Assembly (NCBI GenBank): GCA_004362315.1
Contig: SNWL01000004.1
Span: 806,001 to 870,000, forward strand
DNA from: Mycobacterium sp. BK086
GTDB lineage: Bacteria; Actinomycetota; Actinomycetes; Mycobacteriales; Mycobacteriaceae
Length of the DNA stretch: 64,000 nucleotides
Reading direction: 5' to 3'
Positions 3,881 through 13,610 of this stretch are shown one piece after another (positions within the stretch are counted from its first letter, which is position 1; every line of letters starts with the position of its first letter). The notes under the pieces are model-generated. The model saw nothing but the letters and a program-made list of their open reading frames with translations. It was not told the DNA's origin and did no database searches. Position numbers and translations under genes: made by a program.

Positions 3881-4785
3881 ACCTCTCCTCTTTCAGCGGC
3901 CTTGCGGGGTGGGCGGGGAATGAGCATCGGCACTCGGTCGATGACGTCCTGATACTGCGGGCGCCGCGCCAGAGAACGCTTCTCCATCATCGGGATGCTG
4001 GCACCCAGGAACATCGCGAGCATCGCGACCACGCCGATGAACAGCCACCAGGCCGACGCCGGGGCGGCGGCCACGCCGAACAGCGCGAGCGCGAACCAGA
4101 AGCTGATCTCACCGAAGTAGTTCGGATGCCGCGACCACGACCACAACCCGCGATCCATCACGGCACCGGGTTGCTTGTCGCGCACGAACCGGTGCATCTG
4201 GGTGTCGGCCACCAGCTCGAGGGTCACCGCGGCGATCCCCACCGCGAACGCCACCCAGCTCAGCCAGACCAGGCCCGGGCCAGGCGTGGTCACCGCGATG
4301 TAGACCGGCAGCATCCCGAGGAACACCTGCACGGTGGGAACCAGATGGATGCCGAACAGATCGGCCAAGAACTCCCACCGTCCCGCGCTCTCGCGCAGCA
4401 GCGGGTAGCGCCAATCCTCGTGGTGCAGGCCGGGGAAGCTGTACACCCAGTTGCCGGTCAGGCGCACCGCCCAGTACATGACGACGATCGTGACCAGCCA
4501 GCAGCGCAGCGAATCCCAACCCAGGGGACCCGCGGCCCACCAGTAGACGAGCAGCAGCGGTGGGATCACACTCCAGAACGCGTCGTAGAAGCTGGAGTTG
4601 CGATAGGCGCGGGAAAAGACGAAGACCACCAGGGTGGCGATGACGTCGGCGATGAACGCGTCTAGCCACAATCGCCCGGTCGCCGACGGCCCGTACAGCA
4701 GCCAGGCCGCGCCGGCTCCCACCGCGAGGACGTAGGCCACGGTCACCAGATATAGAGACCCGGCCCGGTTCGGCGTGACTGTCAT
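3877..4785 (-). CDS. DUF1295 / steroid 5-alpha-reductase-like membrane protein
   Basis: This 302-residue protein is almost entirely hydrophobic, with roughly six to seven membrane spans. Near the C-terminus it carries WSWSRHPNYFGEISFW, the typical R-HPNYFGE signature of DUF1295 and related reductases or methyltransferases, where NADPH or SAM binds. Steroid 5-alpha-reductase-like proteins of this group act on sterol or lipid double bonds, but no substrate is proven for the bacterial members. The start at 4785 is supported by an AGGAGG Shine-Dalgarno 4-5 nt upstream. It is the first gene of a two-gene operon with the FAD oxidoreductase. A KstR-type operator lies 24 bp upstream of its start, between it and the divergent fadE pair. 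A role in sterol metabolism is inferred from that. Confidence 0.75.
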   Translation of the reverse strand: MTVTPNRAGSLYLVTVAYVLAVGAGAAWLLYGPSATGRLWLDAFIADVIATLVVFVFSRAYRNSSFYDAFWSVIPPLLLVYWWAAGPLGWDSLRCWLVTIVVMYWAVRLTGNWVYSFPGLHHEDWRYPLLRESAGRWEFLADLFGIHLVPTVQVFLGMLPVYIAVTTPGPGLVWLSWVAFAVGIAAVTLELVADTQMHRFVRDKQPGAVMDRGLWSWSRHPNYFGEISFWFALALFGVAAAPASAWWLFIGVVAMLAMFLGASIPMMEKRSLARRPQYQDVIDRVPMLIPRPPRKAAERGEV

Positions 4786-4808
4786 GCAACCTCCTACCGC
4801 GGCCGAAC

Positions 4809-4822
4809 TGTAACACGTTCTA
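4809..4822. promoter_or_regulatory. KstR-type operator
   Basis: The bases TGTAACACGTTCTA match every fixed position of the mycobacterial KstR consensus TNNAACNNGTTNNA. KstR is the TetR repressor of cholesterol-catabolic genes. The site sits in the divergent promoter region shared by the DUF1295/FAD-oxidoreductase operon and the fadE pair. A weaker copy at 4899-4912 has one mismatch at a fixed position. Confidence 0.7.
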
Positions 4823-4912
4823 GTTGCAGGCTACCGGGCGCCGGAGGGCACCGAATCAGGCCTGCCGGCCCAAAACTTGACACCTGCCAACAACTGACAA
4901 CAACTGGTTTCA

Positions 4913-4918
4913 TATCGT
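4913..4918 (+). promoter_or_regulatory. Candidate -10 box of a leaderless fadE transcript
   Basis: TATCGT fits the mycobacterial -10 pattern TANNNT. The first base of the ATG at 4925 is 7 nt downstream, where transcription would start. No Shine-Dalgarno is seen, so a leaderless message is likely. Confidence 0.45.
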
Positions 4919-4924
4919 GTCGGA

Positions 4925-6121
4925 ATGAGCACCGTCGCTGATGCCGAGCGGGTCGAAGACCTGGCCCGGCGGGTCGTGGCAGACCACGATCCGAAGAACG
5001 TCCCGATTCCGGAATTCCTCGGCGCCTGTTACGACGCCGGCCTGTCCTGGGTGCACTTTCCCGAGGGCTTGGGTGGGCTTGGCCTGTCGCGAGGCGTGCA
5101 GGCCGTCGCCGATCGGATCCTGCAGGGTGCCGGTGGTCCGGTACCGCTGGGCCTCAACCCGATGGGTTACGGCATGGCCGCCCCGACCGTCCGGGAGCAC
5201 GCCCAGTCCGACGACCTGAAGAAGGCGCTGCTGCGCCCGCTGGCCACCACCGAAGACATCTGGTGTCAGCTGTTCTCCGAGCCCGGCGCCGGCTCCGATC
5301 TCGCCGGGTTGGCCACGACCGCGGTGCCCGACGGCGACGAGTGGGTGATCAACGGCCAGAAGGTCTGGACCAGCCTGGCGCACCGTGCCCGCTGGGGTCT
5401 GCTGCTGGCACGAACCAACCCCGACATCGCCAAGCACAAGGGTTTGACCTACTTCGTGCTCGACATGCACGCCCCGGGAGTCGAGACCCGTCCGCTTCGC
5501 CAGATGACCGGACAGGCCGAGTTCAACGAGGTCTACATGACCGACGCCCGGATCCCCGACACCCACCGCCTCGGCGCGGTCGGCAACGGCTGGAACGTCG
5601 CGATGACCACCCTGATGAACGAGCGCAGCGCCCTGGGCGCCAGCGGCAGCCGTCGCGGCAGTGGCACCATCAAGGACGCCACGGCGCTGTGGGCCTCGCG
5701 CCCCGATCTGCACACCCCCGTGCTACGGGATCGGTTGGCGCAGTTGTGGTTGCGCTCTGAAGCCCAGCGGCTGACGTCGGAGCGATCCCGCGCGTCGGCG
5801 ACCGCTGGCGGCCCGGGTCCCGAGGCCTCGGTCGGCAAGCTGGTCGGCGCCTTGCTCAATCAGCACATCTACGAGTGGTGCATGGATCTGCTTGGGCCCG
5901 AAGGGATTCTGTACGACAGCTACGCGTTGGCCGATGGCTCCGGTGACGCGGGCGACTGGCGCGGGCCGATTCAGCAGCGCTACCTGCGCAGCCGCGCCAA
6001 CACGATCGAGGGTGGCACCACCGAGGTGATGCGCAACATCCTCGGCGAGCGGGTGCTGGGCCTACCCGGCGATCTGCGTGCCGATGCGGGCATGCCTTGG
6101 AAGGAGATCCCCCGTGGCTGA
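4925..6121 (+). CDS. Acyl-CoA dehydrogenase, subunit carrying the catalytic-type Glu loop
   Basis: This 398-residue protein has the ACAD fold. The flavin-side motif CQLFSEPGAGSDLA is near residue 115, KVWTSLAHRA near 150, and the C-terminal loop ANTIEGGTTEVMRNILGERV near 365. The IEG-T loop corresponds to the region of the catalytic Glu in medium-chain ACADs. It is immediately followed by, and overlaps by 8 bp, a second ACAD gene. Such adjacent pairs in mycobacteria form alpha2beta2 enzymes that desaturate steroid side-chain CoA thioesters. With the KstR-type site upstream, a sterol or related bulky acyl-CoA substrate is a reasonable inference but not proven. Confidence 0.88.
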   Translation: MSTVADAERVEDLARRVVADHDPKNVPIPEFLGACYDAGLSWVHFPEGLGGLGLSRGVQAVADRILQGAGGPVPLGLNPMGYGMAAPTVREHAQSDDLKKALLRPLATTEDIWCQLFSEPGAGSDLAGLATTAVPDGDEWVINGQKVWTSLAHRARWGLLLARTNPDIAKHKGLTYFVLDMHAPGVETRPLRQMTGQAEFNEVYMTDARIPDTHRLGAVGNGWNVAMTTLMNERSALGASGSRRGSGTIKDATALWASRPDLHTPVLRDRLAQLWLRSEAQRLTSERSRASATAGGPGPEASVGKLVGALLNQHIYEWCMDLLGPEGILYDSYALADGSGDAGDWRGPIQQRYLRSRANTIEGGTTEVMRNILGERVLGLPGDLRADAGMPWKEIPRG

Positions 6122-7277: not shown

Positions 7278-7320
7278 CGTTCGGGTGCGAGAAGTGCTGA
7301 GACCTTCTCGCACCCGAACG
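7278..7320. terminator. Bidirectional hairpin terminator
   Basis: Perfect 17-bp arms (CGTTCGGGTGCGAGAAG at 7278-7294 and its complement at 7304-7320) surround a 9-nt loop. The hairpin lies between the converging ends of the fadE pair and the histidine-rich peptide gene, so it can serve both transcripts. Confidence 0.75.
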
Positions 7321-7343: not shown

Positions 7344-7589
7344 TCAGCCGTTACGGTGGCGATTCCACTGGTGGTGATGATGGATCGAGGTCCCCGGCTG
7401 GGGCTGATTCGTCTGGTGCGGGAACGCCGGGTGCGTCGTCGGATGGCTCATGTTGGGGCCGGTGCTGTCCGCGAAGCTGTCAGGTGCGGCTCCCAGGGCG
7501 ACCAGCGCTGAGCCGGTAGCCAGGATTGCGCCTGCGGCGATGCGCTTGAACCAGATCGTGGTCGAGGTGTTGGTGGTCGTGATGGTCAT
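7344..7589 (-). CDS. Small secreted histidine-rich protein (copy 1)
   Basis: An 81-residue precursor. A basic n-region and hydrophobic stretch (WFKRIAAGAILATGSALVALGA) end in SFA-D, a good signal-peptidase I site near residue 40. The mature part of about 41 residues is rich in His (8), Pro, Thr and Gln and ends PGTSIHHHHQWNRHRNG. There is no Cys. It closely matches the product at 12939-13169, sharing the His4-Gln-Trp tail and the GPN-x-x-x-P segment. The start is taken at 7589 because the match to the second copy begins there (MT-x-x-T). The two upstream regions are also alike and include a large palindrome. Function is unknown. Metal binding is suggested by composition only. Confidence 0.72.
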   Translation of the reverse strand: MTITTTNTSTTIWFKRIAAGAILATGSALVALGAAPDSFADSTGPNMSHPTTHPAFPHQTNQPQPGTSIHHHHQWNRHRNG

Positions 7590-7696
7590 GATGTCGTGCT
7601 CGTTCTGTTCGTGCTTCACCCGGTTTGCCGGGTAACAAAAGAATCGCGCACAAGAGCCCCGATGTCTGTCGGGCGACCGGGCCATGGCCGGGATGA

Positions 7697-7728
7697 ATCC
7701 GGTGTCCGCCGATCGGGGGACACCGGAT
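7697..7728. promoter_or_regulatory. 32-bp palindrome upstream of histidine-rich gene, copy 1
   Basis: ATCCGGTGTCC, G, CCGATCGG, G, GGACACCGGAT reads as one near-perfect palindrome; only the G/G pair at 7708 and 7717 fails to pair. Its core TGTCC-N-CCGATCGG-N-GGACA recurs upstream of the second histidine-rich gene at 13299-13318. It starts 3 bp beyond the stop of the DUF1214 gene, so a second use as that gene's terminator is possible. Conservation upstream of both peptide genes favours an operator. Confidence 0.65.
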
Positions 7729-7730
7729 CC

Positions 7731-8879
7731 TCAGGGGAGGTTACGGTCGGCGAAGTGCGCGTGGCGTCTGGCCAGGGCCGCGGCGCGTTCGGCCGGTGTG
7801 AGGCGCTGGGCAGCATCGAAGTACCGATCGATCTCATCGGTGCCGATGACGGTGACGACCGGCGGGCTCGGCTGTGTCGGAGTGGTGGCCCGCCACGTGA
7901 CGACCCCGCCGCGATAGCCCCGGGCGTCCAGCCAGTTGGGCACTCCGAAGTCTCTAGTGGACAGGAGAATTCGTACGTGTCCATCGGCGATCTGGGACTG
8001 CCCGAGGTTCAGACTCGTCTGCCGGCTCTCGATGTCGATCATCGCACTCCACCGGTCGGTCAGGCAGATCCCGACATACGGGCTGCCGTCGGGAATCTGG
8101 TAGTCGATCACCAGCGCCTGGTCCTCGCCCAGCTCCCAGGCTATCGGCACGAACCACGCGCCCGCCATCGCCGTCGGCGGTTGCATCGGCGGGATCGCGA
8201 CGTTCTTCGGCAGCGCGCCGAACACCCGTGCCGGAATGTCCTTGACCCACATCGTGAACAGCTCGCGCGACGCGGTCAGGTTCGCGCCGAACGCCTCGGT
8301 CGACGCGGCGAGCGACGGCGGATCCGCGCCTGCGGGTTCGCCTAGGCATTCGATGCGGATCGTGCCCTTGGCCTCCCGGTTCCAGTCCCCGTAGGTCTGG
8401 TAAGCACAGAACGAGTCTGCCCCCGGTGGCAATTCAAACCAATTGCTGCCCTGCCGTTCTCGGCCGAAGATGATCTCGAACGTCCCATCATCGGCGACAT
8501 CGAGATCATCGGCGAGCACTTTCACCGCGGTGCCCTGATCGCCCTTGCCGGTGTACACACCGAAGGTGGTCTGCGACACCGACCCCAGCGTGCCGAATAC
8601 CCGATAGTCGTGGGCGTCGTCGATGCGTGCCGACAGGTAGAGGGTGTCGGGATTTGAATGGCCCCAATTCCATGGCGAGTACTGAGCATTGATCAGCGTG
8701 GGTCGGGCCGGGTCGCTGCGCAGCAGCAACCCCATGTACTGGATGTGGCCGACAAGTCGGACCAGCAGCGTGGCAGCCGACCCCTCGTCGAGATCGCCGT
8801 CAGCCAGCGCGAGTTCGAGGAGCTCGGAGTTGAGGTCGTTGAATCCCCGCCATGCTGAGCGCAATTCGTCGGTGGTCAC
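7731..8879 (-). CDS. DUF1214-type protein
   Basis: This 382-residue protein has no signal peptide or membrane segment. The C-terminal half carries CLTDRWSAMIDIESRQTSLN followed by a DG turn and GVPNWLDARGY, the pattern of the DUF1214 domain. The reaction catalysed by this family is unknown. The start is a GTG at 8879 that overlaps the stop of the sulfotransferase gene by 4 bp (GTGA), so the two are translationally coupled. The sulfotransferase-DUF1214 pairing recurs in mycobacteria as far as I recall, which suggests a shared substrate, perhaps a sterol or lipid alcohol. That last point is inference. Confidence 0.6.
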   Translation of the reverse strand: MTTDELRSAWRGFNDLNSELLELALADGDLDEGSAATLLVRLVGHIQYMGLLLRSDPARPTLINAQYSPWNWGHSNPDTLYLSARIDDAHDYRVFGTLGSVSQTTFGVYTGKGDQGTAVKVLADDLDVADDGTFEIIFGRERQGSNWFELPPGADSFCAYQTYGDWNREAKGTIRIECLGEPAGADPPSLAASTEAFGANLTASRELFTMWVKDIPARVFGALPKNVAIPPMQPPTAMAGAWFVPIAWELGEDQALVIDYQIPDGSPYVGICLTDRWSAMIDIESRQTSLNLGQSQIADGHVRILLSTRDFGVPNWLDARGYRGGVVTWRATTPTQPSPPVVTVIGTDEIDRYFDAAQRLTPAERAAALARRHAHFADRNLP

Positions 8880-10141
8880 GATCGGGCGTCCTCGATTCCG
8901 TAGAAGTCGCGGTAGAACTGCAATTGCGGCCAGAGCTCGTCGATGTCCAGTCCGTAGTCCTCGGCGCGATATACGTGCGGCTTGCGCCTGGCCAGCCCGC
9001 GTTCGTCGACGAAGCGCCGCATCGTGGCGCGGTTGTGGTCGTCCAGATCGATCCCGAATCGGTCGTAGATCTCCTCCACGCAGGCCAATGGATCGCTCAC
9101 CATGCGCCGCATCGGGAAGTCGACGAAGCGGTCGGCGAGATCGACGTATTGCCTACGTAATTCGACATTGCGTTCGAGCATCCTGGTGGTGCGCCAGCGC
9201 ATGAAGCGGCCATGCTCGTGCCAGTCAGGATCATCGACGGCCATGTGAAACACGGTGCCGGCCAGGCTGCAACCAGAGGCGACGATCTCGGTGGGCTCAC
9301 GATAGGTGGTGACGAACCGGGCGTCGGGAAACACCGCAAGGATGTTGTGGATGTTCTCCATGTGCGGAGGCGTCTTGAGCAGCCAGCTGGTCGCCGGACG
9401 CAGGCCGCCGCTCTGCATGTACTGCAGCAGCAGCTTCTGCTCCTCATACACCCAACGCAGATCCTGCTCGGTCAGCCAGCGCGCATAGTCCTGGCAGTTG
9501 AACATCACGTGGAAGGTGTCGCTGTGGAAGGCGTAGGCGTGTAGCAGCGCACACTCCTGGGCCTCCCACGCACCGACCGGGTGGGCGGCGTCGAGGTTGG
9601 GCGCCATCTTCATGCCACGACGAATCTGCTTCTCGCTGCGCTTGATTCGCGGGTCATGGTCCATGGTCGCCGGATCGAGCGGTGGGTGCAGTTCGTCGCA
9701 TTCCCAGGTGAGCGGGTAGCGGAAGCCGCCGTCCTGGCTGAGTAGATGATGGGTGACCGTGGTGCCGGTGCGAGGTGCGCCGATGATGAAGATCGGGCGT
9801 TCGATCTTCTCCTCACGAATCTCGGGATTCCGGCGGATGTGTTCGGTCAACAACAGCCGCTGCCGCAGCAGGTTCGACAGATGGGCGCCGGCCAGCACCC
9901 GGCCGAATCCGCTGAGTCGATCCTCGTCTTCCAGCGAGGCGATCAGCCGATCGAGGCCGGCCTCGAAACGCGGGTCGCCGAAATCGGTCAGGCCTCCTGC
10001 ACGACGTATCGCACGGTCCACGAGTACGGATTTGCGCAAGATCAACGGGTGCCGCCCGATCCCGCGTGCACCGCGATAGGCCACGTTCATGACCCGAATC
10101 GGCAGTGGCCTCGGCGGTGTCTCGATGGCGATGGCAGCCAC
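8876..10141 (-). CDS. Sulfotransferase family protein (PAPS-dependent type)
   Basis: This 421-residue protein has the 5'-phosphosulfate loop PIFIIGAPRTGTTVTHHLL near residue 140 and the downstream nucleotide-binding region with RFVTTYREPTEIVASGC near 290, as in the mycobacterial stf-like family. It is predicted to move sulfate from PAPS to an alcohol. Glycolipids and sterols are known targets of relatives, but the substrate here is unknown. It is the first gene of a two-gene operon with the DUF1214 protein. A TetR-type palindrome lies 38 bp upstream, shared with the divergent TetR gene, so regulation by that repressor is likely. Confidence 0.8.
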   Translation of the reverse strand: MAAIAIETPPRPLPIRVMNVAYRGARGIGRHPLILRKSVLVDRAIRRAGGLTDFGDPRFEAGLDRLIASLEDEDRLSGFGRVLAGAHLSNLLRQRLLLTEHIRRNPEIREEKIERPIFIIGAPRTGTTVTHHLLSQDGGFRYPLTWECDELHPPLDPATMDHDPRIKRSEKQIRRGMKMAPNLDAAHPVGAWEAQECALLHAYAFHSDTFHVMFNCQDYARWLTEQDLRWVYEEQKLLLQYMQSGGLRPATSWLLKTPPHMENIHNILAVFPDARFVTTYREPTEIVASGCSLAGTVFHMAVDDPDWHEHGRFMRWRTTRMLERNVELRRQYVDLADRFVDFPMRRMVSDPLACVEEIYDRFGIDLDDHNRATMRRFVDERGLARRKPHVYRAEDYGLDIDELWPQLQFYRDFYGIEDARS

Positions 10142-10178
10142 CTCCCGGCGCGGTGGGGCAGGTAGCCCCGGACGTCGG

Positions 10179-10202
10179 ATTACGTTACGGTCTTAACGTA
10201 AT
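10179..10202. promoter_or_regulatory. TetR-type operator overlapping the regulator's start codon
   Basis: Perfect 9-bp arms ATTACGTTA and TAACGTAAT surround a 6-bp spacer. The right arm covers the AT of the ATG at 10201. The site lies between the divergent sulfotransferase and TetR genes and is the obvious target for autorepression. Confidence 0.7.
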
Positions 10203-10800
10203 GGAGTCAACGAAGAAGCAGCGCGCTCCCCGGCGGCCGCAGGGACGACCCCGGGACAGCCGTATCGACGACGCGGTTCTGCGCGCCACCGTCGAGTTGC
10301 TCGGCGAAGTCGGCTATGCGCGCCTGACCATTCCGCTGGTCGCAGCCCGAGCCGGTGCCACCCCGCCTGCGGTGTACCGGCGCTTCCCCACCAAACTCGA
10401 ACTCGTCTACGAGGCGGTCTTCCCGACCCCGCCCGGCGCCGAACTGCCATTGACCGGAGACGTCGAGTCGGCGATCCGCGGGCTCCTGCAGGCCAGCATC
10501 GAACTGTTCAGCAGCCCGGCCGTCCACACGGCGATGTCAGGCCTGATGGCCGAGCTACCCGCCGAGCCAGGCCTGTCGGCGCGCCTGCTCGGCCGCTTGC
10601 AGGGCAGTACTTACGTTCGGCTGCAACAGTTTCTCGACGAAGCCGCCGCCGCGGACCGCGCCGCCAAGGATGTCGACGCCCGCATCCTGCTGGACACGAT
10701 CGGCGGCACGGTCATGATGGCCTTGGCCAACGAGCGCGCGCTCGACGAGCACTGGGTCGAGCAGACGACCTCACTGATCGTCGACGGGCTGGCGCGATGA
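10201..10800 (+). CDS. TetR/AcrR family transcriptional regulator
   Basis: This 199-residue repressor has a basic N-terminus (KKQRAPRRPQGRPR) and a helix-turn-helix around residues 30-65 (LLGEVGYARLTIPLVAARAG, then PAVYRRFPTKLELV). The ligand-binding C-terminal part is helical and not assignable to a ligand. The ATG at 10201 was preferred over longer readings because the basic arm and HTH spacing then match the family, and the operator abuts it. The next gene starts inside its stop codon (ATGA), so the regulator and the LLM oxidoreductase are one unit. Autoregulation through the palindrome at 10179-10202 is inferred. Confidence 0.85.
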   Translation: MESTKKQRAPRRPQGRPRDSRIDDAVLRATVELLGEVGYARLTIPLVAARAGATPPAVYRRFPTKLELVYEAVFPTPPGAELPLTGDVESAIRGLLQASIELFSSPAVHTAMSGLMAELPAEPGLSARLLGRLQGSTYVRLQQFLDEAAAADRAAKDVDARILLDTIGGTVMMALANERALDEHWVEQTTSLIVDGLAR

Positions 10801-11840
10801 GCACCATGGAACTGGTCACCTCGGCCCCGGCGAAGATGGGCCCCGGCGAAATCGGTTCGTGGGCAACGCGAGCCGAGCGTCTGGGGTTCGACGTCATCCA
10901 CATCTCTGAAACCGTCCACGATCCCTTCACGGTCGCCGCGCTGGCGCTGCAGCACACCGAGCGGGTGACCGTGCGCACCAGCATGGTGCTGGCCTTTCCG
11001 CGCAGCCCGATGATCACCGCCTACGCGGCGTGGGATCTGGCGAGCTACTCCGGCGGCCGGTTTCAGCTCGGCATCGCCTCCCAAGTGCGCGGCAACATCG
11101 TCGGCCGGTTCTCGGCGCAGTGGTCCGAGCCGGTGGCCCGCCTGGCCGATTACATCAGGGCGCTGCGCGCGATCTTCGCGTCCTTCCAGACCGGTGCGAA
11201 GCTGGATTATGTTGGGCCGCACTACCGTTTCGAGCGACTCCAGCCCTATTTCAACCCCGGCCCGCTCGAGCATCCTGCCCCGCAGATCTGGACGGGTGCG
11301 GTGAATGCGCGGATGTGCGCGATGGCCGGCGAGCTGGCCGACGGCTTCGTCTGCCACCCGACCAACTCGCACCCGGTGGTCCTGAAATCCCGCACTCTGC
11401 CCGCCCTCGCCGAGGGCGCAGCGCGCGCCGGGCGCGGACCACTGGCCGTCGTCGCCAACCCGAATGTCATGACGGCAGCCACCGACGACGCCGTCGCCGC
11501 ACTGCGCGAGCAGCGCCGCTCCGAGCTGGCGTTCCTGTACAGCACACCGGCCTACCGCCGGCAGCTGGAGGACTTCGGCCTTGCCGAGGCCGGGGCGGCG
11601 CTCAGTGCGATGGCCCAGCGCTCCGAATGGGACGATCTACCAACCATTCTCACCGACGATGTAATGAATCAGCTTGTCCCACAGGGCACGTATCAGGAGA
11701 TTCCCGTCATCTTGTCCCGGTGGTATTCGGGGCTGTGCACCGGAATCAACCTACCGGTGCCTGCCGATACCACGGACGACGACGCCTTCGGCGCACTGCT
11801 CGACGCCTGCCGCCGGATTCCTGCCGCCGAGCGCGCCTAG
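10797..11840 (+). CDS. LLM-class (probably F420-dependent) oxidoreductase
   Basis: This 347-residue luciferase-like (beta/alpha)8-barrel protein contains VIHISETVHDPFT near the N-terminus, RVTVRTSMVLAFPRSPMITAYA across the central barrel, and GRFQLGIASQVRGN. This is the general layout of mycobacterial F420-dependent LLM oxidoreductases. The substrate is unknown. It is translationally coupled (4-bp overlap) to the TetR gene, so that repressor probably controls it as well as the divergent sulfotransferase operon. Its stop overlaps the stop of the convergent patatin gene by 4 bp. An FMN-dependent reaction cannot be excluded from sequence alone. Confidence 0.8.
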   Translation: MSTMELVTSAPAKMGPGEIGSWATRAERLGFDVIHISETVHDPFTVAALALQHTERVTVRTSMVLAFPRSPMITAYAAWDLASYSGGRFQLGIASQVRGNIVGRFSAQWSEPVARLADYIRALRAIFASFQTGAKLDYVGPHYRFERLQPYFNPGPLEHPAPQIWTGAVNARMCAMAGELADGFVCHPTNSHPVVLKSRTLPALAEGAARAGRGPLAVVANPNVMTAATDDAVAALREQRRSELAFLYSTPAYRRQLEDFGLAEAGAALSAMAQRSEWDDLPTILTDDVMNQLVPQGTYQEIPVILSRWYSGLCTGINLPVPADTTDDDAFGALLDACRRIPAAERA

Positions 11841-12844
11841 CGGAATCGGTCGAGGCACTCCCGCTCGTCGAAAGTCGACAGGAACCTGGTGGCGGCGTCG
11901 TACCCCCGCGCGTAGAGCGCGTCGATCTCACGCTGCTTGATGTGGAAATCCAGCACCCCGACATTCGTCGAGTCCACCCTGATGGTGCGGCAGTTCACCC
12001 ACGGCAGGTTCAGGTAAGCCTGATCACGGCCGACCAGGATCGTGGTGATGACGTCCTCCAACAGGCTCGGTCCGCCGAAGTGCCGCAACGGTGCAAGCGC
12101 GGGGATCACCTTGTCGTTGTGCTCGGGCAGGTCGGGCAGCAGCGTCACACCGAAGGTCGGCCAGCGCGGCTTCTTGCCGTCGGGGCGGTCCAGTGAGTCG
12201 ATCGGATAGTTCGACAGCAGGCCCCCGTCGACGAGCGTCGACTCCCGACCCGCTGCGCTGGTGAGTGTGACGGGCTTGAAGAAGAACGGGATCGACATCG
12301 AGGCGCGCACCGCGTCGGCGACCGGCTGCTCGTCGGGATCCAGCCCGTAGACCCGGCGGTAGTCCCACGGCAGCCGGACCAGCTGCCCTGTCGTCACATC
12401 GGCGGCGGTCACGACGAGGCGGTAACGCTGCTCCGGCGGCAACTCGTCGTCATCGATCCGGAGATCGCCGAACGTGCTGACGCCGAGATCGCGCAGCTGA
12501 TCGGCGATGAAATCGTGTGCGTAATCACCCTGGTAGATGCCCGTCCCCTGCAGGATCGCCCACGACGGCCCGAGCAACGGCAGGCGTTCGACGGGGCCGG
12601 GATCCAAGAACTTGCGGTAGTCGATGCTCAGGGCGAGGTCGCGAACCTCGTGCGGGGTCAGCTGGTCGTTCTTGGCGGCCGCGGCCACGATCGACCCGAC
12701 GATCGAGCCGGCCGAGGAGCCGGCCACCCGGTAGGCCCGGTATCCCGCTTCCATCAACCTGACCACGGCACCGGCCAGCCCGATGCCTTTCACGCCGCCA
12801 CCAGCAAGGACCAGGTCGAGCGGTTTCGTCGCAGGCGTGGGCAT
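11837..12844 (-). CDS. Patatin-like phospholipase
   Basis: This 335-residue protein has all parts of the patatin Ser-Asp dyad. The oxyanion loop GGGVKGIGLAGA is near residue 15, the nucleophile elbow GSSAG near 43, and the catalytic Asp in VDGGLLSNYP near 210. Such enzymes hydrolyse acyl ester bonds of phospholipids or neutral lipids. There is no signal peptide, so a cytoplasmic or membrane-associated location is likely. The gene is monocistronic and convergent with the LLM oxidoreductase. A hairpin in front of it separates it from the next minus-strand gene. Confidence 0.88.
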   Translation of the reverse strand: MPTPATKPLDLVLAGGGVKGIGLAGAVVRLMEAGYRAYRVAGSSAGSIVGSIVAAAAKNDQLTPHEVRDLALSIDYRKFLDPGPVERLPLLGPSWAILQGTGIYQGDYAHDFIADQLRDLGVSTFGDLRIDDDELPPEQRYRLVVTAADVTTGQLVRLPWDYRRVYGLDPDEQPVADAVRASMSIPFFFKPVTLTSAAGRESTLVDGGLLSNYPIDSLDRPDGKKPRWPTFGVTLLPDLPEHNDKVIPALAPLRHFGGPSLLEDVITTILVGRDQAYLNLPWVNCRTIRVDSTNVGVLDFHIKQREIDALYARGYDAATRFLSTFDERECLDRFR

Positions 12845-12875
12845 CGCCCCATGCTAGGAGCCTTGCCTGACAAAG

Positions 12876-12913
12876 CCGTCGGGCGGGGAAGCGAGAGCTT
12901 CTCCGCCCGACGG
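12876..12913. terminator. Hairpin terminator behind histidine-rich gene copy 2
   Basis: 17-bp arms (CCGTCGGGCGGGGAAGC and its near-complement at 12897-12913, one mismatch) surround a 4-nt loop, with a T-rich run on the plus side. It sits 25 bp beyond the stop of the minus-strand histidine-rich gene. Confidence 0.7.
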
Positions 12914-12938
12914 GTTTTCTTTGGGGGGTCTGGGGCGC

Positions 12939-13169
12939 CTAGCCCGCCCGGTGCCACTGGTGATGGTGGTGGGCGATCGAGCCGGGCACCGGGAAGTTGT
13001 GCTGGCCGGGGAAGGTCTGATGGTGGCCGGGCTGATTCAGGTTGGGGCCGCCGCTGAAGGGGCTGGTTTCAGCCATGGCGTCGGTGGCGGAACCGAAGGC
13101 GAACAGTGCGGAGCCCGCGGCCAGGGCGCTACCGGCGGCGAATCGCTTCATCCAGGTCATGGTGGTCAT
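12939..13169 (-). CDS. Small secreted histidine-rich protein (copy 2)
   Basis: A 76-residue precursor with a signal peptide (WMKRFAAGSALAAGSALFAF, cleavage after AMA near residue 33). The mature peptide of about 43 residues has 8 His, no Cys, and ends PGSIAHHHHQWHRAG. It is paralogous to the product at 7344-7589, with the same length, layout and tail. The ATG at 13169 was chosen because AGAGGA lies 9 nt upstream; the ATG at 13178 is too close to that Shine-Dalgarno. Upstream DNA is alignable without gaps to that of copy 1 for about 105 bp. Function is unknown; extracellular metal binding is a composition-based guess. Confidence 0.72.
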   Translation of the reverse strand: MTTMTWMKRFAAGSALAAGSALFAFGSATDAMAETSPFSGGPNLNQPGHHQTFPGQHNFPVPGSIAHHHHQWHRAG

Positions 13170-13298
13170 GTCGGTCATTCCTCTTTGTCGTCTGTGACTT
13201 GTCTGTGTGGGCCTTGGTTCTTCGCCAGTGGTGAAACGATCTCGCATCCAGGCCTCGATGTATGTCCGGCAGCCGGTGGATGACCAGGTGGAATTCGG

Positions 13299-13318
13299 TG
13301 TCCCCCGATCGGTGGACA
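13299..13318. promoter_or_regulatory. Palindrome upstream of histidine-rich gene, copy 2
   Basis: TGTCC, C, CCGATCGG, T, GGACA is a perfect 20-bp palindrome apart from the C/T pair. It matches the core of the palindrome at 7697-7728. Here it lies in a 273-bp divergent region (13170-13442), so it could also govern the small secreted-protein gene at 13443. Nothing else is recognisable in that region. Confidence 0.65.
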
Positions 13319-13442
13319 AGGCTCAATTCCTGCCAACCGGCGATCATCTGCTGCCAGCGGAATTACTGCGCCCCCCGGTGGCGTTGGGACATGTCAGCGG
13401 CACGGAAATCCACTCCGGCCGTTGAGGAAGAGGGAAACAGAC

Positions 13443-13610
13443 ATGAAGAAGTACGCACTCACCACTGCGATCGCCGGCGCCATGACCGCCGCGGTTCTCG
13501 GACTTGCCGCGCCCGCGCAGGCCGACCTCGGTCACAACGACTGGGTCAACAACATCGGCCCGTCGGCGACCGCGCCGCACGTAGACACCACAGTGCATGG
13601 AAGCCGCTAA
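13443..13610 (+). CDS. Small secreted protein, 55 aa
   Basis: A 55-residue precursor: MKK, a hydrophobic stretch, and a signal-peptidase I site at AQA-D near residue 30. That leaves a mature peptide of about 25 residues (starting DLGHNDWVNN) with three His and no Cys. AGAGGGA about 8 nt upstream supports the ATG at 13443 over an earlier one. It is divergent from histidine-rich copy 2 and shares its palindrome-containing upstream region. It is followed 21 bp later by a hairpin. I do not recognise the family. Confidence 0.65.
   Translation: MKKYALTTAIAGAMTAAVLGLAAPAQADLGHNDWVNNIGPSATAPHVDTTVHGSR

Follow-up and report, generated by a model that had tools for sequence, protein, structure and literature searches.

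Small exported histidine-tailed proteins of Mycobacterium behind a shared palindromic operator, with a candidate NarL-type two-component regulator

Introduction

Two-component systems and small exported proteins are both known kinds of part. MymT, a Cys-type metallothionein of mycobacteria, is a very small metal-binding protein; the miniproteins described here are alike in their very small size, but lack Cys and carry an export signal. Another point of comparison is the NarL response regulator of Mycobacterium tuberculosis (locus tag Rv0844c). Its receiver structure, 3eul, is the nearest solved relative by sequence of the response regulator discussed below (E 1e-62, residues 5-143). This structure covers the receiver only, and in the literature passages available for M. 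tuberculosis NarL neither a binding site nor a target was found.

In Mycobacterium smegmatis, the response regulator of the MnoSR system is described, in the passages available, as having a palindromic target that lies 137 bp in front of a gene (PMC11303327). On this description, MnoSR and the candidate system share a two-component regulator and a palindrome upstream of a gene; according to the same passages, MnoSR differs in acting on an operon for an alcohol dehydrogenase and in having its site in a single copy (PMC11303327). The exoprotein ZepA is likewise described, in the passages at hand, as a zinc protein that is exported and contains an unstructured stretch with His (PMC10957091). On that description, it differs from the miniproteins in its predicted structured zinc site and its role in zinc uptake (PMC10957091). 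Within the searchable literature, neither the miniprotein family nor its operator nor their connection with this regulator seems to have been described: searches for the family or the operator, including searches with the letters of the operator and of the tail, returned nothing relevant within a scope that covered few subscription papers.

Two paralogous genes in the window

The window, which is the whole 64 kb stretch of Mycobacterium sp. BK086 DNA analysed here, encodes two His-rich miniproteins with export signals, as seen from their open frames, their alignment and their conserved core. Copy 1 (7344..7589, minus strand) has 81 amino acids, with a signal at residues 1-40 and a mature part of 41 residues (41-81), while copy 2 (12939..13169, minus strand) has 76 amino acids, with a signal at residues 1-33 and a mature part of 43 residues (34-76); both cleavage sites were placed by eye in an AxA-type context. 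For copy 2, an alternative in-frame ATG at 13178 would give a protein of 79 amino acids, but GAGGA would then abut the start codon. The two copies are 54% identical over 67 aligned residues, and each mature part contains eight His, as counted by eye. Neither copy contains Cys, and a Cys-rich metal site of the MymT type is thus absent.

These results confirm the original prediction that duplicated, exported, His-rich miniproteins are encoded here, as regards the positions of both frames (by an open-frame check), their export-type signals (judged by eye), their paralogy, and the length and the His and Cys content of their mature parts. A third small protein with an export signal, 55 amino acids in length (13443..13610, plus strand), is the divergent partner of copy 2, as had also been stated, and does not belong to the His-rich family. 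AlphaFold2 modelling (11 sequences, low confidence, mean pLDDT 53.5) gave a single helix, which covers the signal, and no secondary structure in the mature part; the mature peptide of about 40 residues may thus be disordered.

On the 3' side of copy 1, a strong hairpin with a T-rich tail (7278..7320, minus strand; -53.2 kcal/mol and z -8.2 for the 94 nt folded) is a probable terminator. Downstream of copy 2 on the same strand lies a patatin-like phospholipase gene (11837..12844, minus strand), which a neighbour survey found to recur in this position beside copy-2-type genes. The intergenic region between the two contains a 17-pair hairpin (12876..12913) with a T-rich tail on the plus strand, which makes a role as a terminator for copy 2 uncertain.

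The palindromic operator

The strongest feature of the locus, and one absent from the original prediction, is a shared operator, with its link to a response-regulator gene and with the third protein facing copy 2 across it. The palindrome GTGTCCNCCGATCGGNGGACA lies upstream of both copies in the window. At copy 1, it takes the form GTGTCCGCCGATCGGGGGACAC (7702..7723), 113 nt before the ATG, and a site search placed a second palindrome at 13298..13319, common to copy 2 on the minus strand and the third protein on the plus strand. These are the only two sites in the 64 kb at up to three mismatches, against a chance expectation of 0.06. Around 36 nt downstream of the copy 1 palindrome, a degenerate second operator-like stretch, CCGGTCGCCCGACA (7663..7683, minus strand), forms a conserved block with a putative operator role.

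The same arrangement is found throughout the family. Among 109 family genes, a set drawn from the stretches fetched rather than from all matches in the genus, 106 have the palindrome TCCNCCGATCGGNGGACA upstream at a median of 126 nt from the ATG, where up to four mismatches were allowed at 60-145 nt before the ATG, two mis-called starts were re-anchored and all 109 genes were counted. In a base-shuffled upstream control, an operator was present at 1 of 109. The three misses are L080 (five mismatches), L043 (contig end) and L087, and one of the matches, at 65 nt, has a doubtful start. Six positions (T3, C7, A10, G16, G17 and A18) are invariant in all 106 operators. In 28 sequences hand-chosen for diversity, the palindrome is mostly followed on its 3' side by TTCRTCC or a near form, and further on by a degenerate second copy at about 36 nt, a CATtcTTA-like block (a possible -10 box) and a stretch rich in purines at the ribosome site. 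At L008, L010 and L011 the mature part has diverged and the palindrome has been kept. In addition, a protein of the third type lies on the other strand behind 20 of 104 family operators. Compared by eye, the operator does not fit the DevR/DosR box consensus, TTSGGGACTWWAGTCCCSAA; its site counts give TCCNCCGATCGGNGGACA.

Candidate response regulator

In the window's genome, one further site (C4:502366) lies at the start of a response-regulator gene (G000:C4:501705-502346), which is followed by a kinase gene. The regulator is of the NarL/LuxR type, with a receiver domain (PF00072, 7.7e-27) and a GerE domain (PF00196, 8.5e-17) in Pfam, and the 329-residue part of the adjoining partner kinase that was scanned matches HisKA_3-type PF07730 at 24.7 bits (cut-off 24). 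Among the 25 NCBIfam matches listed for the regulator, none reached its cut-off; the E. coli-type NarL equivalog NF007935 gave 149.8 bits against a cut-off of 250. For the kinase, MctS-, LiaS- and MadS-like NCBIfam matches were far below theirs.

In a sample of 396 genomes of the genus, 277 have the regulator (E<=1e-85) and 226 the exact palindrome, with zero for the reversed-pattern control among the matches listed. Both are present in 215 genomes, the palindrome only in 11, the regulator only in 62 and neither in 108, such that the regulator is found in 215 of the 226 palindrome genomes vs. 62 of the 170 others (odds ratio 34, which, like the ratios that follow, ignores phylogeny). Over a nested set of 178 genomes, the palindrome has an odds ratio of 45 with the regulator, whereas the control, the patatin-like gene, gives 1.7 (p 0.12). 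The 84 genomes that contain the miniprotein family include 81 with the regulator and 78 with the exact site. Counting against the regulator model are the 11 palindrome genomes in which the regulator is absent at this cut-off, the 62 of 277 regulator genomes without an exact site, and the 3 and 6 of 84 family genomes that lack the regulator and the exact site, respectively.

Palindrome and regulator gene are also physically linked. A site with up to two mismatches lies within about 2.5 kb in 19 of the 21 regulator loci read first, some of which were chosen for a known nearby site or family gene; in 13 of these 19 the site is no more than about 110 bp upstream of the regulator and in 6 it is elsewhere, while L170 and L171 have none. 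For 20 further loci, hand-picked at intervals down the matches listed, a site at the same threshold lies within 90 bp upstream in 13 and within 1.4 kb in 15, and is absent in 5. The 6 loci with the site elsewhere and the 5 with none count against the regulator model. Family members occur in 6 of the 21 loci, three of them as weak matches, and in G419 (L152) a family gene and the regulator gene diverge across one operator. Co-occurrence and linkage both point to the palindrome as the probable target of this NarL-type regulator.

It is unlikely that the palindrome is instead bound by some other, unlinked regulator, such as a TetR-like repressor, with the response-regulator gene being just another of its targets. 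Such a protein would agree with the target sites that lie far from the response-regulator gene, both in the window and elsewhere, and with the 11 of 226 palindrome genomes noted above, but it is at odds with the many loci that link the palindrome to the response-regulator gene, with an odds ratio of 45 beside 1.7 for the control gene, and with a paralogous regulator that has a variant palindrome of its own.

This second, paralogous regulator is encoded together with a kinase in the window's genome, and five of six loci have the palindrome TGTCGTCCGNNCGGACGACA, intact or changed, with TTCATCC likewise on its 3' side. The first palindrome is absent at the paralogous loci, where its best matches have three to four mismatches. 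Among the 178 genomes, the exact variant palindrome is present in 1 and the second regulator in 7. The occurrence of a variant palindrome at the paralogous loci fits two regulator-operator pairs that may have drifted apart. At G000:C2:1148600-1150700 (L122, L123, L136, L172), the second regulator and its kinase have as neighbours a gene for a MIP channel and one for a small protein that carries an export signal, each behind a variant palindrome of its own.

Other genes behind the palindrome

Across the window's genome, the palindrome gave 14 forward and 13 reverse matches at up to three mismatches, compared to 3 for the reversed pattern. Nine palindromes remain at up to two mismatches, and five of them precede, as judged by eye, small proteins that have an export signal. 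One of these sites belongs to copy 1, one is common to copy 2 and the third protein, and the others, at C3:877817, C4:502366 and C1:291235, precede unrelated small proteins. The other four lack a small exported protein. One, with TTCATCC, precedes an acyl-CoA thioesterase (C3:562208), one lies beside a 61-residue frame with no evident signal (C3:852459), and at C2:1174736 and C6:491762 no gene for a small exported protein is present. Two sites with three mismatches (C3:132793 and C5:101090) likewise precede small proteins with a signal.

In ten other genomes, hand-chosen among those with several sites, a small exported frame lies at 85-150 nt on either side of only 17 of the 41 sites counted (42 are shown in the list) vs. 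126 of 2000 random places; this share, like the four sites without such a protein in the window's genome, counts against the regulon model. Eight exact palindromes are found in G023 (L220, L240, L242-L246), none with a convincing small exported frame at this usual distance, which likewise speaks against the model; the heuristic returned nothing beyond one frame at 65 nt that is doubtful and one of 127 residues, exported, at 169 nt. At L156 and L169, operator-linked proteins with export signals and ALASVQ/ALASVM-type repeats lie divergent from the regulator gene. In the window's genome, the other proteins of the candidate regulon do not share the His richness of copies 1 and 2, so that what its members have in common is being small exported proteins and not a connection with metal.

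Distribution and conservation of the miniprotein family

A search with copy 2 found the family (E<=0.001) in 84 of the 396 genomes of the genus. In a set of 61 relatives, matches at E<=0.01 were obtained in 12 genomes and 2 of 22 genera, the sole match outside the genus being weak and having a stop in frame. No match to the family was found in plasmids and phages. The view that the miniproteins belong to no named family was borne out in Pfam and NCBIfam, where both copies matched 0 families at E<=1. A PDB sequence search with copy 2 gave no match at E<=1, and PHROGs gave none for copy 2 and only chance-level entries for copy 1 and the third protein (E 0.09 and 0.12). Some genomes are multicopy, with seven family copies in G338, six in G065 and five in G087, and in the multicopy clusters L042, L043 and L044 genes of the Fic, DUF7255 and NYN-LOTUS types lie among the family genes.

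For a count of conserved residues, four of the 109 genes were left out (two mis-called long starts, one cut off, and one 140-residue protein with another mature part), giving 105 rows and 102 distinct proteins, with one row kept that has no His tail. The mature parts have a near-invariant core, H..FP.Q.N.P.PG[ST]..HHHHQ. Counted over the 102 proteins, its first half is conserved as H 99, F 98, P 97, Q 100, N 88 and P 91, and its second half as P 98, G 97, S/T 99, H 99, H 99, H 93, H 101 and Q 97, while Trp follows HHHHQ in only 44. Where the original prediction had proposed a shared His4-Gln-Trp tail that would be conserved in homologues from related genomes, homologues were found and His4-Gln proved to be general among them, but the Trp was not.

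Pairwise dN/dS has its lowest median in the core (0.33), with medians of 0.50 for the mature part and 0.59 for the signal, based on 4032 to 4927 pairs with dS of 0.1-1.5, which are not independent of one another; for copies 1 and 2 themselves the ratio is not computable, because dS of this pair is saturated in the mature part and the core. A tree with few columns and many unresolved forks puts the two copies into separate clades, one of 19 rows with copy 1 (support 99/94) and one of 20 rows with copy 2 (97/89). One copy-1-type and one copy-2-type gene are found in each of 18 genomes, including that of the window, which places the duplication before the split of those genomes. The patatin-like gene is the nearest same-strand downstream gene for 26 of 105 family genes, 23 of these within 115 nt, mostly in the clade of the window's genome. 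An operon with this gene was considered and set aside; across the 178 genomes its presence does not follow that of the palindrome, and we therefore regard it as a neighbour.

Nature of the peptide and of the palindrome

Rather than binding metal, the mature peptide might be membrane-active, antimicrobial or a signal, though this seems improbable. A small size, an export signal, a basic end and tandem multicopy clusters with variation would all suit such a role; against it, conservation is strongest at His, Gln, Phe-Pro and Pro-Gly, which is not an amphipathic pattern, and no immunity-like partner stood out in a general grouping of neighbours. Much less probable still is a palindrome that acts as an RNA hairpin in a regulatory leader. 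Its near-fixed distance to the ATG would be in keeping with a leader, but the palindrome serves two divergent genes, its two N positions do not covary (46 of 106 are Watson-Crick pairs vs. 54.7 expected) and Rfam has no match in the window stretch, six other loci having given only a tRNA. The lack of covariation and the divergent use led to rejection of the RNA-leader reading and argue for a DNA operator. Finally, the idea that the miniproteins are chance open reading frames, prompted by short frames in GC-rich DNA, has a negligible probability, since 84 of the 396 genomes contain homologues, the core is conserved and dN/dS is lower than 1.

Proposed explanation and significance

The sequences directly establish the family, its core, the operator with its near-fixed spacing, and the co-occurrence and linkage of the regulator. 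The explanation that we consider reasonably probable is a two-component regulon of small exported proteins, of which the His-tailed peptides would form one branch, with a metal-binding step included. From these sequence patterns, we infer binding by the regulator, activation, export and metal binding as its putative steps. The partner kinase would phosphorylate the NarL-type response regulator, which would then bind the palindrome TGTCCNCCGATCGGNGGACA and perhaps also its weaker repeat, some 36 bp closer to the gene. Once bound, the regulator would switch on transcription of copies 1 and 2, and it would probably control its own gene too. The product would be exported via the Sec route and cleaved after the AxA box, releasing a disordered peptide of about 40 residues that may act in the envelope or outside. 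In either place, the near-invariant HHHHQ tail would most likely bind a transition metal (or haem), as its four near-invariant His suggest. The earlier interpretation of the miniproteins is partly supported: paralogy, an export-type signal, a conserved tail and the lack of a named family are borne out, and the proposed extracellular or periplasmic role in metal binding or membrane activity stays putative.

A broader reading, which we put forward tentatively, is that in many mycobacteria the main output of this two-component system may be interchangeable small exported peptides, amounting to an undescribed envelope peptide response. A conserved cassette of operator, leader and signal peptide would then be maintained while its payload is swapped or multiplied, the kinds of payload named so far being the His-tail peptides, the ALASVQ repeats, a GPGYSY type and the divergent 55-residue protein.

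The present findings connect a family of exported peptides with one particular operator and with a candidate two-component system, and this connection makes targets, signal and function directly testable. If the explanation is true, a mycobacterial NarL-type regulator would govern small exported proteins for which there is no family model.
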